Of a DNA stretch of 7,257 nucleotides, positions 67 to 7,257 are shown one piece after another. Origin of the DNA: Bacillota bacterium (lineage in GTDB: Bacteria > Bacillota > Bacilli > Alicyclobacillales > SLC66). The notes below the pieces were generated by a model. That model had not been told where the DNA came from. It ran no database searches and worked only from the letters and a program-made list of their open reading frames with translations. The stretch is from contig JAKACR010000140.1 of assembly GCA_021821225.1 (NCBI GenBank), positions 1 through 7,257 on the forward strand, written 5' to 3'. The position numbers were made by a program, and so were the translations under genes. Every line of letters begins with the position of its first letter. Positions within the stretch are counted from its first letter, which is position 1.

Positions 67-76
67 AGAGAGGGTG
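67..76 (+). promoter_or_regulatory. Ribosome binding site of jetA
   Basis: The purine run AGAGAGGGTG resembles the anti-Shine-Dalgarno complement AGGAGGTG and ends five bases before the GTG at 82. It supports the GTG start over the in-frame ATG at 133, whose only upstream purine run (AGAGG) directly abuts it. Confidence 0.65.
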
Positions 77-81
77 CTTGT

Positions 82-1644
82 GTGTTAAGCATTCACTATA
101 CTGAAGATGTGGAGTCAGTCGTGTTGCAGAGGATGAGTGCCTTGATCCGGAACCAGGCGAGTGAGCTCTGGATAAAACCCGTGCCGGAACTAAAGTATCT
201 GAACGCGGACAATGTGGCGCGTTATCGCTTGATCATGCGGTTTTTCTATGAAAATCACAGCAAGATGAAGTATTGGCTAAAGCCGGAGGACGTGTTTGCA
301 GGCGTCTTGGCCTGGGGATTGTCGGCGGATTACACGGAAGAGTTGTGCCAGCGCGATCTCGAAATGCTCGTCGAGTGGAAGAATCTCACCAGCCGGCATG
401 ACGGCGGAAGGGCGGGGTCCATCGAGGAGTACCTGCGCAAGCGGTTCCGCTATCAGATGACGCCGTATGCGATTGAGATCGAGCGGATGCTGCAGTCGCT
501 GGAGCAGATCCAGGGCTACGGGGGATCGCTCGAACCGGCGCTGTTGGAGCGGATCGCCGGATATATGGCCCGGATTCGCGACGCGGACGGAAACTTTGCA
601 TCTGGAGCGGCGCTGCAGTTGTGGAAGGATCTTCAGGGAGCGTTTCGGCAGTTGCACGAGAATGCGTCCGATTATCTGGCGAGCCTGCAGACCTCGCGGG
701 CCGAGGAACTGATGCTGACAGATCGGTTTCTGGTCTTCAAGGACATGCTGTCCCAGTATCTGCGCGATTTTGTGAAAGGGTTGCAGCAGTATGGCGGGCA
801 TGTCGAGGGAATGTTCCGCGCGGAGCCGGAAAGGGTATGGCAGGCATTCCTCGCGGCGCTCGCGCAGGATGAGGCGCGGCTGCCGACGCTCGAACATACG
901 CTGTCGGATGAGGAGCGCATGCAGTTGCATCAGGAAGAGTGGCTGGTTTTGCAACAGTGGTTTGTGGGAACGGCGACGGAGCCGAGCGATGTGCATTACC
1001 TGGAACGGCAGACGAAGGACACGATCGCCCGCGTCGTGCGGTACGCACTGGCGATTCAGGACAAGCATCGCGTGGGGCAGAGCCGCAGACGGGAACTGGA
1101 GCGTCTCGGACGCCTGTTTCTGGCCATGGAACACGCAGAACCTGCGCATCGGTTGGGCGCTTATGTGTACGGCCTGTATACGGCGCGCTGCTTTCAGGGA
1201 GAGAGCGAGGCCGCGTCAGACGCGGCGGATTTTTCGATGTGGGATGAGACGCCCATTTTGCGAAGCCTGAGAGCCCGCGCCAGGGGGCAGCGCCGGTCCG
1301 CTGGCACGGAAGCCGTCCGCAGCACCAGGGTAGAGCGGGCGGAAGCCACGGCCGCCATTTTGCAAAAGAAGGAACTGGAACAGGCGCTGATGCGGGAATG
1401 GGCAAAGCGGGGGGTGCTCCGGATGAGCGAACTGCCCGCGTTGACCGTGGAGCATCGGGTGCTGTTGCTGCAGTGGATCGGGAGGTGTCTCGTCAATCGC
1501 TCGAAATCGACGCGAACGCCCGATGGGCTTGAGATTCGGCTGACCCTGCCGCGAAGCGGGGAACGGACGCAGGTGGAATTTACCGACGGGCAGTTGGACA
1601 TGCCCGACTTTACCTTGATCATCCGAGAGGTGGCGATGTCGTGA
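82..1644 (+). CDS. jetA: Wadjet type III subunit JetA (DUF2397/TIGR02677 family, putative kleisin)
   Basis: This 520-residue protein resembles the TIGR02677/DUF2397 family. The key match is residues 39-72, where a YLNADNVARYR-type helix leads into an FFYENHSKMKYWLKPEDV segment, close to the family's N-terminal pattern. Residues about 40-130 read as a winged-helix domain, with a probable recognition helix near 91-101 and the wing around 105-125. Residues 130-350 are mostly helical. A second family-like stretch is at 341-370 (RLGRLFLAMEHAEPAHRLGA, then YVYGLYTAR). A basic, low-complexity linker (about 393-420) precedes a compact C-terminal domain (about 425-520) that could be the second winged helix of a kleisin. 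By analogy with MukF and type I JetA, it should bridge the two JetC ATPase heads and bind JetB. The kleisin role is inference. Length is near what I recall for the family (about 500). The start is GTG; the first 30 residues precede the conserved region. The stop overlaps jetB by four bases. Confidence 0.87.
   Translation: MLSIHYTEDVESVVLQRMSALIRNQASELWIKPVPELKYLNADNVARYRLIMRFFYENHSKMKYWLKPEDVFAGVLAWGLSADYTEELCQRDLEMLVEWKNLTSRHDGGRAGSIEEYLRKRFRYQMTPYAIEIERMLQSLEQIQGYGGSLEPALLERIAGYMARIRDADGNFASGAALQLWKDLQGAFRQLHENASDYLASLQTSRAEELMLTDRFLVFKDMLSQYLRDFVKGLQQYGGHVEGMFRAEPERVWQAFLAALAQDEARLPTLEHTLSDEERMQLHQEEWLVLQQWFVGTATEPSDVHYLERQTKDTIARVVRYALAIQDKHRVGQSRRRELERLGRLFLAMEHAEPAHRLGAYVYGLYTARCFQGESEAASDAADFSMWDETPILRSLRARARGQRRSAGTEAVRSTRVERAEATAAILQKKELEQALMREWAKRGVLRMSELPALTVEHRVLLLQWIGRCLVNRSKSTRTPDGLEIRLTLPRSGERTQVEFTDGQLDMPDFTLIIREVAMS
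1625..1633 (+). promoter_or_regulatory. Ribosome binding site of jetB inside the end of jetA
   Basis: GAGAGGTGG ends seven bases before the GTG at 1641. The spacing favours this GTG, which forms a GTGA overlap with the jetA stop, over the in-frame ATG six bases further on at 1647. Translational coupling to jetA is likely. Confidence 0.65.
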
Positions 1645-2852
1645 ACATGGGCGGGCGACAGCGGCCGGCAACCGGATCGGAATCGTTCGCCGATGACAGG
1701 CGCGCGGCCGTACAGGCGCTGCTCAACCGCCCGTTCATCCAGCGGCAGCGGGATACGGACCTTTATCTGATCATTCGGGATCACTTCCGGGTGCTGCGGG
1801 ACTGGTTCTACGAGCAGACCGGGTGGACGCTGATCCTGACGCGGCAGTTCGCGAAACTGGAGAAAACACCCGGCCGCTGGCAATCGTGGATGGCCGTCGA
1901 AGGCTTTCGCGACGGGCGCGACTACGGTTATTTCACGTTTGGTCTGTGGTACCTTGAGGGCCTGAACGACGGGCAGCAGTTTCTGCTTTCGGAAATGGCC
2001 GAAGCCATTCGCGAACACCTGGTTGCCGACGGCGTCTCGGTGGACTGGACGCTGTACGACCATCGCCTGTCGATGGCAAGGGCGCTTAGAAAACTGCGCG
2101 ATCTCGATGTGCTCCAGGCAGTGGAAGGCGACGAGACTGACTGGGCGCGCGCCAGGTCGGAAACGGGAGTGGATGTGCTTTATCAGGCGTCAGCGCTGGC
2201 CCGCCATGTGCTCCAGAAATTGCCGGCCGATGTCTTTGACGACGGGGTGACGACGGCGGAACCGGAGAGCGGGGCGGCGAATGCAGGAACCGATCCCGTT
2301 ATGCAAAGGCGCCATCTCGTCATGCGCCGGTTGCTTCAGGAGCCGGTGGTGTACGACTGGCAGTGGAATGAGGACGAACGGCGGTACGTACAGACGCAGC
2401 GCGCGTCGCTGATCGACCGCATCCAGACGTTCACCGGCCTAGAAGGGCGCCGCTTCCGCGAGGCGCTGTTGTTTGTGTGGCCCGCTTCCACAGCCGAGAT
2501 GGATTTGTTTCCCACGCAAGGGATGCAGTCGGATATCCTGATCCTTCTGGCAGGCGAGGTTCGGCGCAAGCTGGACGCCGACGAACTGCGGTACGAACGG
2601 GACGAGAACCACAGTCTGCTGCTTACGCGGAGCGAATGGGAAGCGTTGATGGTGGAGTTGCGCAGCCGGTATGGCGAGTGGTGGAGCAAAGAGTATCGCG
2701 AGATGCAGACCGTGGCGCTCGCGTCCGACATTGTGAATCACCTCGCGGAATGGAACCTCGGCGAATCTCTCGCATCCGGAGGAGTCAGGCTGTTCCCGGC
2801 GCTGCTGCGGTGGGCCGGATCATACCGCTGGGAAGGAGGAGATGAGGCATGA
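1641..2852 (+). CDS. jetB: Wadjet type III subunit JetB (DUF2398/TIGR02678 family, putative KITE/MukE-like)
   Basis: This 403-residue protein resembles TIGR02678/DUF2398. Family-like segments are the N-terminal RRAAVQALLNRPFI helix (residues 20-33), the RVLRDWFYEQTGWTLILTR segment (50-68), an LRKLRDLDVLQAVEGDE winged-helix element (149-165) and, most distinctive, RRHLVMRRLLQEPVVYDW followed by RRYVQTQRASLIDRIQTFTG (223-266). A probable C-terminal winged helix (about 355-396) contains ASDIVNHLAEWNLGE. An acidic, low-complexity patch at 198-220 may be a flexible linker. Two winged-helix regions fit a KITE-type partner of an SMC-kleisin complex, like MukE and type I JetB; that role is inferred from gene position and fold. 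No signal peptide, membrane segment or catalytic motif is visible, so it should be cytoplasmic and non-enzymatic. The gene overlaps jetA and jetC by four bases each, which fits coupled synthesis of complex subunits. Confidence 0.86.
   Translation: MNMGGRQRPATGSESFADDRRAAVQALLNRPFIQRQRDTDLYLIIRDHFRVLRDWFYEQTGWTLILTRQFAKLEKTPGRWQSWMAVEGFRDGRDYGYFTFGLWYLEGLNDGQQFLLSEMAEAIREHLVADGVSVDWTLYDHRLSMARALRKLRDLDVLQAVEGDETDWARARSETGVDVLYQASALARHVLQKLPADVFDDGVTTAEPESGAANAGTDPVMQRRHLVMRRLLQEPVVYDWQWNEDERRYVQTQRASLIDRIQTFTGLEGRRFREALLFVWPASTAEMDLFPTQGMQSDILILLAGEVRRKLDADELRYERDENHSLLLTRSEWEALMVELRSRYGEWWSKEYREMQTVALASDIVNHLAEWNLGESLASGGVRLFPALLRWAGSYRWEGGDEA
2833..2840 (+). promoter_or_regulatory. Strong ribosome binding site of jetC
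   Basis: AAGGAGGA is the closest match in the operon to the anti-Shine-Dalgarno complement. It lies in the last codons of jetB, eight bases before the ATG at 2849, and fixes that ATG as the start. The ATG overlaps the jetB TGA as ATGA. Confidence 0.8.
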
Positions 2853-5800
2853 CCGTGAGTCGATGGCATCTGCACCGGGCCGGCATGCTCAACTTCTGGT
2901 TTTACGACGAAGCGGAGTTCCGGATGGAGGGCGGGAGGCTGATCCTACGGGGCGCGAACGGATCGGGCAAATCGGTCACGATGCAGAGTTTCCTGCCGCT
3001 TGTGCTCGATGGGGACAAGCGGTCGTCACGCTTGGATCCGTTTGGGTCGCGAGACCGCAAAATCGAATACTACCTGCTCGGCGAAGGAGACGGCGCCAGG
3101 AATGAGTGCACAGCGTACCTGTACCTGGAGTTTCTCGATCCGTCGGCGAACAAGTACCTGACCGTCGGTATCGGTCTCAAGGCGAAGCATGGGGCGCAGC
3201 AGGTCGGATTCTGGGGCTTTGCCATCACGGACCAGCGCCGCATCGGCCACGACTTTTTCTTGTATGATCGCGATCTGTGGGACTCGCCGGACCAGAAAGT
3301 ACCGCTTGACCGCGCGGGTCTGGAGGCGGCGATCGGCAGTGGCGGCAAGGTGGTGCGCGAGCAGGGCGAGTATCGGAATATGGTCAACCAGTTCCTGTTT
3401 GGTTTCGAAGATCCGGAAGCTTACAAAGAGTTCCTCAATCTGTTGATCCAGTTGCGGTCGCCGAAACTGTCCAAGGATCACAAACCGTCTGTCATTTATG
3501 AGATCCTCAACGATGCGATGCCCGCCTTGAGCGGCGAAGATCTCCGCCCGCTGTCGGAGGTGCTGGAGGATCTGGATGAAATCGGCGATAGGCTGGAGGA
3601 ATTGGCGCAGCACCGCACGGATCTGGAGTCGCTTTCCAGCATTTACGATCAGTATAACCGGATGCGGCTGTACCTGCTCTCGTCGCAGGTCGTTCAACAT
3701 TATGCGGACGTCCAGGGGCGCGACAGGGAAACCGGAGCGCACCGGACCGCACGCGATGAATTGCAGCGGCGGATTGACCTGATCGGGAAACGCATTTTGC
3801 AGGTGCGGCAAGCGGTTCTGGAGGCGGAGACGAAGATCGACGCCATCGATCGTTCCAAGGCGATGGAGATGCAGCGCGACTTCGAGAATGCGAGCGTGCG
3901 GCTGGATGAAACAAAGCGGGAGATCCGTGGCATTGTCGGGCGCAAGGAGGAGCACACTCGCGAGTCGGGCGCGAAGCGGGAGCGGCTCGCGCAGGCGGAG
4001 GCGGAGCAAAGGCAGCGCGAGGCGGAGGCAGGTGGACACCGGACGAAGCTGGACGGGCTGGCGGCCGTTGCGGAATTTGCCGATCACGCTGTCTATACCG
4101 AGCTTTGGAAGGATCCGGAGGCGCGTCTGGCGCCGCGCACCTGGGAGTCGTTGCAGCAGGACGTCAAGCGGCAGGAGAACGCACTGAAGCAGGCCCGGGA
4201 ACTGGGTTTGCGCGAGCGTCGGCAGAAGGAACGGGCCGACTCGGCCGAGAAGGTCGTGAGCGATGCGCGCGAGGCGCGGGATCAGAAGGATCGGCAGCAC
4301 AAGGAGCGACAGCGTGAGTTGGAAGATGCGCTCACCGTCCAGGAGAATGCGATTTTGGTCTGGCGCGACAGTCTCCGTGAACTGCCCGTGGAGAATGCGC
4401 AGTGGCGGGAGTCGCTTCGCCGTTTGCAGCGGTATCCGGAGGCAGCGTACGCGGACGTGGTCAGTCCGATACGAGACGCGCTGTCCGCGGCAAATAGCGT
4501 CGTCGAGAGCCGGCGTGCGGAGGCGCGGCAACAGAAGCGGATGTTGGAAGAGGCGCGCGCGGCGTGCGGGAGGGAACTGGCGGAGTGGCAGAATCAGCGG
4601 GAGCCGGAGCCACCCAGGTCCGGAGCGAGAGCGGAAACCCGCCAACGTCGGCTGGAGCAGGCCGCCGGAAAGCCGGCCGGAGGTCCGCTGTACACACTCT
4701 GCGAGTTTCATCCCTGGGTGGACGAGTCGACGCAAGCCGCGATTGAAACGGCGCTGCATCAGGCGGGCGTGCTGGACGCGTGGGTTGGCATGGATGGATG
4801 GAAGCCTGACAGTGCGAGGGCCGATGAACCGTCCGGCGAGGAAGAAGTCTGGATCCGCCCCAATCCGCTTTTGTTTGGCGAGACGCTTGCCGAGTATCTG
4901 AAGCCCGCACCGTCGAAGGAGAGCGGATTGACGCCGGTGAAAGTGGACGATGTGCTGCGCACCGTTGTGATGACCGACTGGACTGCGGATGACGCAACCA
5001 CGGTCGCCGAAGATGCGCGGATGCGGATGACGGTAGGCGGGCGTTTTCAACTGGGCCCGCTTGCCGGCATGTCGGCGGTCAAGCCGCAGGCGGAGTGGAT
5101 TGGCGTGGAGGCGCGGCGGCGGACGCGGCTTGCGCAAATTGAGCGGTTGCAAGCGGAGATTGCGGACCTTGAGGCGCGGATGGAAGAACTGGCGGCGGTG
5201 CTCAGACAGCTTGATGAGCAACAGTGTCAGATGGCGGCGGAGTTTGAGGCGTTTCCGGAGGAGAAGCCGCTTCGCGCGGCGAGTGACGCTTTACACAACG
5301 CCCGGCTGGATCTGCAGAATGCGCTCGGGACGGAGGAGCGCGCCACGGAGTCGTTCAAGGAGGCGCTGCGGCAATGGAGGGATCTGCAGCGGCAGTTTCT
5401 GGAGTCTGTCTCCCACTGGCGGCGGATTCAGTCTGTGGAGCATCTTGAGGATGGAATTGACCGGCTGCACGAGTATCAGTTGAGCTGCCGTGACCTGAAG
5501 AGCGCGTATGCCGCGCAGGCCAAGGCATCGCTGGACATCCGGACACTGACGGCAGAGTTGGCGGTTCTGGATGGGAAGGTGCGGCAGGAGGAGAGCGCAC
5601 TGCACGGGGCGACCGAACGGTGTGCTTCGTTGCAGGCGGAGGTCGACGCGCTGCGTCAACTCCTGACGGAGTCCGGCGCGATGGAACTCGTGGCGCAGTT
5701 GGCGGCGCTTAAGGTGGAGCGCGAAGCGGGCAAGATGGAAGAGGTCGGCTTAAACGAGGAAATGCATGGCCTGCGGGAGGAGCGCGGACGGATCGAGACG

Positions 5801-7000
5801 ACGCTGGAGGTGGCGGAGCGGGCGCTGGTGGATGTGCGGGCGCGGCTGGAAACGGCTTCGGGTCTGCTGCGGGAGGAGTGGCGGCTTGGTTTTGTCGATC
5901 CGCCAGAAGGCGTCCAGTCGTCTGACGCGGTCAAGATGGCGCAGGCGTATGTGCGCTTGGAGCGGTCCCGCCTTGAATCGCGACAGATGCATGCCATCGA
6001 TTCGCGGCTGATGGAAGTGTTCAGCGTGACAAGCAACGGCCTCCGCGAGTACGCGCTTGAGCAGACGTACGATGAGACGCGGCAGCGCCGGTTTGTCCAG
6101 TCGCTCCGCGACAGGGCCAGGCCCGTGGCCCCCGCCGCCTTGCTCCGTCACTTGCAGCAGATGGAGGAGGAGCAGCGGGCGTTGATCAGCGAAAAGGACC
6201 GGGAACTGTACGAGCAAATTTTGCTGCACAGCGTCGGACGGGCCATCCGCGACAGGATCAATCGTGCTGAACAGTGGGTGGATCAGATGAACCGGTTCAT
6301 GGCGGTGCGCAAAACATCGAGCGGACTGGTGCTGTCGCTGGCGTGGACGCCAAAACCGGCACAAAGCGAGGCGGAACTCAACGCCGATGAACTGGTGGCG
6401 CTGTTGCGAAGGAGTCCGGAGACGTTGCGGGAAAAAGAGATCGATCAGATGATGAACCACTTTCGCTCTCGCATCGACTGGGCAAAAGAACTGGCAGGCG
6501 ACGGTGCGACGCTTCGCCAGGGCATCACAACTTTGCTCGACTATCGGACTTGGTTCCGGTTCACGCTGTATTTCAAAAAGGGCGATTCGCCCAAGCGAGA
6601 GTTGACCGACAGCCGGTTCAACGTGCTGAGCGGCGGTGAGAAGGCGATGGCGATGTACATTCCGCTGTTTGCGGCAGTGGACTCCCGCTACAAGGACTCG
6701 CGTCCGACCGCACCGCGCATCGTCTCGCTTGATGAGGCGTTCGCGGGCGTGGACGAGCAGAACATGAGGGACATGTTCCAGCTTTTGACCGACATGGAGT
6801 TCGACTATATGATGACGAGCCAGGTGCTGTGGGGTTGCTACGAATCGGTACCGGAACTCTCCATTTATGAGGTGCATCGTCCGAATGACGCGGCCTTCGT
6901 CACACTGATTCCATACTATTGGAACGGGATTACACGAAACCTGGTCGTGGACGATGACTGGCAGGCCGTCCGCGAGATTGCGGCGGCCAGCCAGTCCTGA
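2849..7000 (+). CDS. jetC: Wadjet type III SMC-like ATPase JetC (TIGR02680 family)
   Basis: This 1383-residue protein has split-head SMC/Rad50/MukB architecture. The N-terminal half of the ATPase head carries Walker A GANGSGKS at residues 35-42, followed by the family-like SRLDPFGSRDRK segment (60-71) and YYLLGEG (74-80). A long Glu/Arg/Gln/Ala-rich coiled coil runs from about 232 to 610, with non-heptad breaks near 404-432 and 495-530 that could be elbows or joints. A globular, hinge-like region at about 612-753 opens with PLYTLCEFHPWVDES. The return coil runs from about 754 to 1008, with head-proximal helices around 1119-1150. The C-terminal half-head has the ABC signature LSGGEK (1260-1265), Walker B with catalytic glutamate in IVSLDEAF (1291-1298) and the D-loop Asp1302. 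At the usual switch-histidine position it reads TSQ (Gln1325). The protein should use ATP to extrude DNA loops together with JetA and JetB. Length is close to what I recall for TIGR02680 (about 1350). No frameshift or truncation is seen. Confidence 0.93.
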   Translation: MTVSRWHLHRAGMLNFWFYDEAEFRMEGGRLILRGANGSGKSVTMQSFLPLVLDGDKRSSRLDPFGSRDRKIEYYLLGEGDGARNECTAYLYLEFLDPSANKYLTVGIGLKAKHGAQQVGFWGFAITDQRRIGHDFFLYDRDLWDSPDQKVPLDRAGLEAAIGSGGKVVREQGEYRNMVNQFLFGFEDPEAYKEFLNLLIQLRSPKLSKDHKPSVIYEILNDAMPALSGEDLRPLSEVLEDLDEIGDRLEELAQHRTDLESLSSIYDQYNRMRLYLLSSQVVQHYADVQGRDRETGAHRTARDELQRRIDLIGKRILQVRQAVLEAETKIDAIDRSKAMEMQRDFENASVRLDETKREIRGIVGRKEEHTRESGAKRERLAQAEAEQRQREAEAGGHRTKLDGLAAVAEFADHAVYTELWKDPEARLAPRTWESLQQDVKRQENALKQARELGLRERRQKERADSAEKVVSDAREARDQKDRQHKERQRELEDALTVQENAILVWRDSLRELPVENAQWRESLRRLQRYPEAAYADVVSPIRDALSAANSVVESRRAEARQQKRMLEEARAACGRELAEWQNQREPEPPRSGARAETRQRRLEQAAGKPAGGPLYTLCEFHPWVDESTQAAIETALHQAGVLDAWVGMDGWKPDSARADEPSGEEEVWIRPNPLLFGETLAEYLKPAPSKESGLTPVKVDDVLRTVVMTDWTADDATTVAEDARMRMTVGGRFQLGPLAGMSAVKPQAEWIGVEARRRTRLAQIERLQAEIADLEARMEELAAVLRQLDEQQCQMAAEFEAFPEEKPLRAASDALHNARLDLQNALGTEERATESFKEALRQWRDLQRQFLESVSHWRRIQSVEHLEDGIDRLHEYQLSCRDLKSAYAAQAKASLDIRTLTAELAVLDGKVRQEESALHGATERCASLQAEVDALRQLLTESGAMELVAQLAALKVEREAGKMEEVGLNEEMHGLREERGRIETTLEVAERALVDVRARLETASGLLREEWRLGFVDPPEGVQSSDAVKMAQAYVRLERSRLESRQMHAIDSRLMEVFSVTSNGLREYALEQTYDETRQRRFVQSLRDRARPVAPAALLRHLQQMEEEQRALISEKDRELYEQILLHSVGRAIRDRINRAEQWVDQMNRFMAVRKTSSGLVLSLAWTPKPAQSEAELNADELVALLRRSPETLREKEIDQMMNHFRSRIDWAKELAGDGATLRQGITTLLDYRTWFRFTLYFKKGDSPKRELTDSRFNVLSGGEKAMAMYIPLFAAVDSRYKDSRPTAPRIVSLDEAFAGVDEQNMRDMFQLLTDMEFDYMMTSQVLWGCYESVPELSIYEVHRPNDAAFVTLIPYYWNGITRNLVVDDDWQAVREIAAASQS
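2951..2974 (+). other. Walker A (P-loop) of JetC
   Basis: The segment encodes GANGSGKS at residues 35-42, a perfect GxxGxGKS nucleotide-binding loop. It lies within the first 45 residues, as in SMC, Rad50 and MukB proteins. Lys41 and Ser42 should contact the ATP phosphates and magnesium. It pairs in space with the C-terminal signature and Walker B motifs. Confidence 0.95.
4682..5107 (+). other. Hinge-like globular region of JetC
   Basis: Residues 612-753 interrupt the long coiled coil with a segment rich in Pro, Gly, Trp and Cys that lacks heptads. It begins near GGPLYTLCEFHPWVD and ends at an EWIGVEARRRTRLAQI transition back into coil, resembling the boundary I recall in TIGR02680 proteins. 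By position it should be the dimerisation hinge. It is larger than a minimal SbcC/Rad50 zinc hook and has no CxxC pair, so zinc-hook dimerisation is unlikely. Confidence 0.6.
6626..6754 (+). other. ABC signature, Walker B and D-loop of JetC
   Basis: The stretch encodes LSGGEK (residues 1260-1265), then the hydrophobic strand and acidic pair IVSLDE (1291-1296) and the D-loop VD (1301-1302). These are the C-terminal half-head motifs of SMC-type ATPases. Asp1295 should coordinate magnesium and Glu1296 should act as the catalytic base. Their integrity predicts an active ATPase. Confidence 0.93.
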
Positions 7001-7004
7001 CGGC

Positions 7005-7010
7005 GGGAGG
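7005..7010 (+). promoter_or_regulatory. Ribosome binding site of jetD
   Basis: GGGAGG lies in the 20-base gap after jetC and ends ten bases before the TTG at 7021. The spacing is slightly long and the start codon is weak, so initiation may be poorer than at jetC. No other ATG, GTG or TTG precedes 7021 in this frame back to the stop at 6955-6957. Confidence 0.5.
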
Positions 7011-7020
7011 CGCTAACGGG

Positions 7021-7257
7021 TTGGATGCAGGCAGGGATGGAGCGCTTGGCCAGTACCTGCGGCAGCCGGGGTTTTCCCGGTTGTGGCCGAAGGTGAAGGA
7101 AAAGCTGGAGCGGATCGGCCGGATTGGCGGTAAGGTAACACTGACCGCCCTGAGCGCGCAGGAACGGGAGGCGCTGCAGGGGCTGTTGTCCATCAATCTG
7201 CACGGCGAGACCAGCGTCGGCGTGGAGCTGAAACGTCTGGACGAAGCGCTGAGGCAG
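7021..7257 (+). CDS. jetD: Wadjet type III nuclease subunit JetD, N-terminal part (DUF3323/TIGR02679 family; truncated by window edge)
   Basis: An open frame starting at TTG 7021 runs 79 codons to the window end without a stop. The translation fits the N-terminus of the TIGR02679/DUF3323 family: YLRQPGFSRLWPKVKEKLER, then IGRIGGKVTLTALSAQEREA, then LQGLLSINLHGE and VGVELKRLDEALRQ. The pattern of a Trp-containing helix, a gly-rich G-x-V strand, an ER-x-AL helix and a final LD-x-x-LR helix is what I recall for the family. Full-length members are several hundred residues and end in a Toprim-like DUF2399 domain, which would be the metal-dependent nuclease that cuts circular plasmid DNA; that part lies outside the window. 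The start is uncertain, but later in-frame candidates (TTG 7081, GTG 7093) would remove conserved residues. The gene follows jetC by 20 bases and completes the jetABCD order. Confidence 0.78.
   Translation, partial: MDAGRDGALGQYLRQPGFSRLWPKVKEKLERIGRIGGKVTLTALSAQEREALQGLLSINLHGETSVGVELKRLDEALRQ

Follow-up and report, generated by a model that had tools for sequence, protein, structure and literature searches.

A probable type II Wadjet (JetABCD) operon in a Bacillota bacterium, initially annotated as type III

Contig JAKACR010000140.1 of a Bacillota bacterium (assembly GCA_021821225.1), analysed here over a stretch of 7,257 nucleotides that we call the window, carries genes which the initial annotation had read as a Wadjet type III anti-plasmid operon. 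Which Wadjet type do these genes represent, and does the operon look intact? We put the probability that the window carries a Wadjet type II (JetABCD) operon at about 95%, since the best-matching PADLOC models, the comparison with a type III operon and the matches to solved structures all point to that type. The genes and motifs concerned are as follows.

67..74, + strand: likely ribosome-binding site of jetA, AGAGAGGG, 7 nt ahead of the GTG at 82 (motif judged by eye).
82..1644, + strand: jetA, kleisin subunit; GTG start, 520 residues; TIGR02677, DUF2397, PADLOC JetA2.
1641..2852, + strand: jetB, KITE subunit; GTG start, 403 residues; TIGR02678, DUF2398, PADLOC JetB2.
2849..7000, + strand: jetC, SMC/MukB-like ATPase; ATG start, 1383 residues; TIGR02680, SbcC_Walker_B, PADLOC JetC2.
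2951..2974, + strand: JetC Walker A, GANGSGKS (residues 35-42).
4646..5158, + strand: hinge region of JetC, drawn by us at about residues 600-770; collinear with the JetC of 9qe0 and with six relatives.
6626..6640, + strand: JetC ABC signature, LSGGE (residues 1260-1264).
6719..6736, + strand: JetC Walker B, IVSLDE (residues 1291-1296).
7005..7010, + strand: GGGAGG, judged by eye to be the likely ribosome-binding site of jetD.
7021..7257, + strand: 5' end of jetD; TTG start, 79 codons to the edge; N-terminal part of DUF3323, PADLOC JetD2.

The + strand thus carries jetA, jetB and jetC whole, followed by the beginning of jetD. A search of NCBIfam bore out the families that had been named for them, in order: JetA matched TIGR02677 with 307.6 bits (cut-off 165.85), JetB TIGR02678 with 210.5 bits (cut-off 124.65) and JetC TIGR02680 with 823.4 bits (cut-off 462.85), while the jetD fragment, as an 87-codon stretch from position 6997, reached 21.5 bits with TIGR02679, below a cut-off of 196 that is set for the whole protein. 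The Pfam families found in the window proteins were DUF2397, DUF2398, SbcC_Walker_B and DUF3323. All of the best PADLOC models were those of type II (JetA2, 572 bits; JetB2, 369; JetC2, 1390; and JetD2, 55 for the fragment), and no JetA3, JetB3, JetC3 or JetD3 model was matched by any window protein at E ≤ 1, in a scan whose HMMER filters discard most matches above E of about 0.1. When the three complete proteins were compared with PDB sequences, 9qe0/9qe1, with molecules named JetA, JetB and JetC, gave the only matches at E ≤ 0.001. We infer that these entries are nvJET, the Wadjet type II complex of Neobacillus vireti, the molecule names themselves giving JetA, JetB and JetC alone. The earlier assignment to Wadjet as such is therefore supported, as judged from sequence, by three profile libraries together with solved structures.

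A contrast operon was sought as a check that the type III models work. The JetA3 model (PDLC00559) was searched in 104 genomes of the family to which the genome of a Paenibacillus locus discussed below belongs, and was matched in three of them, that genome itself being without a match; two of the matching regions were fetched and one, L026, was read. Its proteins match JetD3, JetA3, JetB3 and JetC3 in that gene order, with jetD first in the one operon read, and its JetC has 1074 residues. None of the L026 proteins matches TIGR02677, TIGR02678, TIGR02679 or TIGR02680 at E ≤ 0.001, and its JetA and JetB match no Pfam family at the same threshold, hence neither DUF2397 nor DUF2398. Because the type III proteins of L026 match none of the four, the TIGR set on which the type III label had been based marks type II, in agreement with the PADLOC models, and the typing error is hereby corrected. 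Literature searches found no paper linking at least two of DUF2397, DUF2398, DUF2399 and Wadjet, and nothing relevant, judged by title, on TIGR02680/TIGR02679.

As far as the window extends, the operon looks sound. Its coding stretches contain no internal stops and have a third-position G+C content of 0.75-0.80. The description of the genes as overlapping holds for jetA/jetB and jetB/jetC (4 bp each) and does not extend to jetC and jetD, which are separated by a gap of 20 bp. GANGSGKS, LSGGE and IVSLDE, which we take to be the Walker A, signature and Walker B motifs of an SMC ATPase, are all intact in JetC, as had been stated. The operon had also been called complete-looking; this goes beyond what the window shows, as most of JetD, including the Toprim part, lies outside it.

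For the rest of JetD we turned to P0124, a full-length database protein of 450 residues whose residues 1-79 are identical to all 79 visible jetD codons. It contains DUF3323 and DUF2399, the make-up of a JetD2, and has a predicted fold of the topoisomerase VI-A/JetD-like kind. Its E306, D357 and D359, presumably the catalytic Glu and Asp-x-Asp of the Toprim domain, are invariant in 39/39 aligned JetDs, P0124 being among the carriers; the alignment used 39 of 48 hits, with P0133, P0134, P0142, P0147, P0153, P0155, P0157, P0167 and P0168 left out. That P0124 is the product of the window's own jetD is suggested by 79 of 450 residues and is not proven, and no contig listed for it exceeds 4362 bases, less than the length of the window. 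To the concern that jetD might be broken beyond the edge, P0124 replies with an intact protein starting with the same 79 residues, as far as an identity over 79/450 residues ties it to this gene. In searches against solved structures, the JetD fragment gave no match at E ≤ 1 and the sequence of P0124 a chance-level match alone (E 0.48).

The alternative that survives best is that the window holds a decaying or inactive copy of the type II operon. Relatives do decay: jetD is visibly broken in two of them, Alicyclobacillus mengziensis and P0157; the JetA matches of two further genomes of the A. mengziensis family are broken, one a fragment with a stop (G019) and the other a second copy in two pieces (G012); and on a low-coverage contig of a metagenome-assembled genome jetC lies in two frames of 1104 and 200 residues (L001 2602-6546), which may be real or an assembly error. 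Set against this, every visible gene and motif of the window is intact and P0124 is full length, and we regard decay of this copy as improbable.

On the A. mengziensis chromosome a gene of 532 residues with transposase DDE domains (L002 15344-16942) lies between two pieces of jetD, unlike the intact-looking genes of the window, and jetA, jetB and jetC remain open, so that the locus would have lost its nuclease naturally while retaining the motor. P0157 (396 residues) begins with JetA residues 1-98, 88% identical to those of the window, and continues with a part that matches P0124 residues 55-335 at 77%; this second match stops at residue 335, before D357 and D359 of the second Toprim motif. 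It is apparently a collapsed operon of a close relative, in which an internal deletion removed most of the operon.

In favour of the original type III reading, types II and III cross-match weakly, as seen in the JetD of the Paenibacillus locus with the JetD3 model (E 5.6e-4) and in the JetD and JetC of L026 with JetD2 and JetC2 (E 2.2e-4 and 3.7e-7). We rejected it as very unlikely, since none of the type III models was matched by the window proteins at E ≤ 1 and L026 differs from the window in its families, in the length of its JetC and in its gene order. JetA3 was likewise unmatched in A. mengziensis, where a related operon is present, in a scan whose controls were also unmatched (it was matched in 3/104 genomes elsewhere). 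A MukBEF/MksBEF-like housekeeping condensin, organising the chromosome without cutting, would share the SMC-kleisin-KITE core and could account for the weak DUF4194 and MksE matches of JetB, each below its cut-off, but was rejected as having scarcely any likelihood, because a jetD start follows jetC at 20 bp, its 79 codons are identical to those of a full-length protein that keeps the catalytic residues, and the patchy distribution of the operon (JetA2 in 14/41 genomes of the A. mengziensis family) suits defence better than housekeeping.

If the type II reading is correct, a working model may be taken from better known systems. A 2023 review (PMC10586767) presents JetABC as a proposed loop-extruding SMC motor and JetD as a Toprim nuclease whose activity is withheld until a small circle has been fully extruded, notes that Wadjet spares linear DNA and circles above about 50-100 kb, and names type I as the subject of most Wadjet work. 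A study of N. vireti Wadjet-II (PMC12647877) describes cutting of circular DNA, no bypass of bead obstacles and a channel-less hinge. By analogy, the JetC ATPase, the JetA kleisin and the JetB KITE subunit of the window would form a dimer of DNA-reeling, loop-extruding motors; the meeting of the two motors on a small circle would release the autoinhibited Toprim nuclease JetD, which would then cut the plasmid. That this copy assembles, extrudes loops, senses size and cleaves DNA, and with this restricts plasmids, is what the systems already studied lead one to expect. The hinge would probably behave as in N. vireti Wadjet-II, since it is collinear with that of the 9qe0 JetC; its predicted fold, with a mean predicted local distance difference test score (pLDDT) of 57.4, was not good enough for a structure search or an interpretation.

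JetA begins differently from its solved counterpart. Positions 82-147 encode about 22 additional JetA residues that are absent from the solved type II JetA. Of 120 relatives listed, the N-termini of 17 were printed, and 10 of these contain the (V/L)LQRM stretch of the extension, which supports the start at GTG 82; six others start later and the start of P0031 differs. One might imagine the extension as a clade-specific contact that aids the docking of JetD or the pairing of the two motors, a doubtful idea which, if true, would mean that this group of type II Wadjets is wired differently from nvJET. A scan for promoter-like sites found no sigma-70-like promoter in 1-81 and, over the whole window, two sites against 1.5 expected from shuffling, which is about chance; terminator-like sites were slightly above expectation (8 against 4.7).

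Close relatives of the operon are found in Alicyclobacillus and other Bacillota. The nearest database JetA, P0001, is 99% identical and the next, P0002 and the gene of another Bacillota metagenome-assembled genome (L005), 77%. A genome scan with exact short JetC patterns, which is not a census, gave six loci, all from Bacillota by their titles; Alicyclobacillus and Paenibacillus are genera that we take to belong there. Of the 14 JetA2 matches in the A. mengziensis family, 13 are nearly full length, and three of the matching genomes (G002, G003 and G004) carry loci that were also examined separately; one genome (G005) was without a JetA match, and its short contig (L006) starts inside jetC. JetC patterns found no relative among the viral contigs of IMG/VR, and JetB had no match in a phage collection.

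Certain of these loci have neighbours of possible interest. In Paenibacillus sp. MZ04-78.2 the type II operon is closely preceded by a gene with a TIR domain of the CAP12/Pycsar type (L003 6655-7098). The operon of A. dauci (L016 9189-21528) is located on a circular plasmid of 148,985 bp (NZ_CP104065.1), next to a PemK/MazF toxin gene and an adjacent pair of genes annotated as cas12b. In a plasmid collection, 15 listed of the 18 records with a match to the P0124 JetD, and 3/3 records matching the window JetA, measure at least about 149 kb. These sizes fit the known size limit of Wadjet, though weakly, as longer records hold more genes and 13/18 come from Streptomyces, a genus in which plasmids may be linear.

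Of the known systems, the operon is closest to type II as represented by 9qe0/9qe1, presumably nvJET: JetA and JetC align almost from end to end, and the alignment of JetB covers residues 23-376 of 403, the differences being that the solved JetA lacks the N-terminal extension (window residue 29 aligns with its residue 7) and that two hinge loops of the window JetC are about 10 residues longer than in 9qe0. The jetABCD order of the window recurs in the Bacillota metagenome-assembled genome (JetA identity 77%), A. mengziensis (73%), A. dauci (62%) and Alicyclobacillus sp. ALC3 (57%). Type I is more distant; the JetB1, JetC1 and JetD1 matches are weak and far below those of type II, JetA1 is unmatched, and the JetD structures of Pseudomonas aeruginosa (7til) and Corynebacterium glutamicum (8b7f) are only loosely alike in fold. 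With type III, as represented by L026, the window shares the plan of an SMC protein and a Toprim-like nuclease, while its jetD stands last instead of first. We see no clear departure from the known type II design, and this otherwise ordinary copy gives the less studied side of Wadjet one more type II operon that looks intact and has close relatives.
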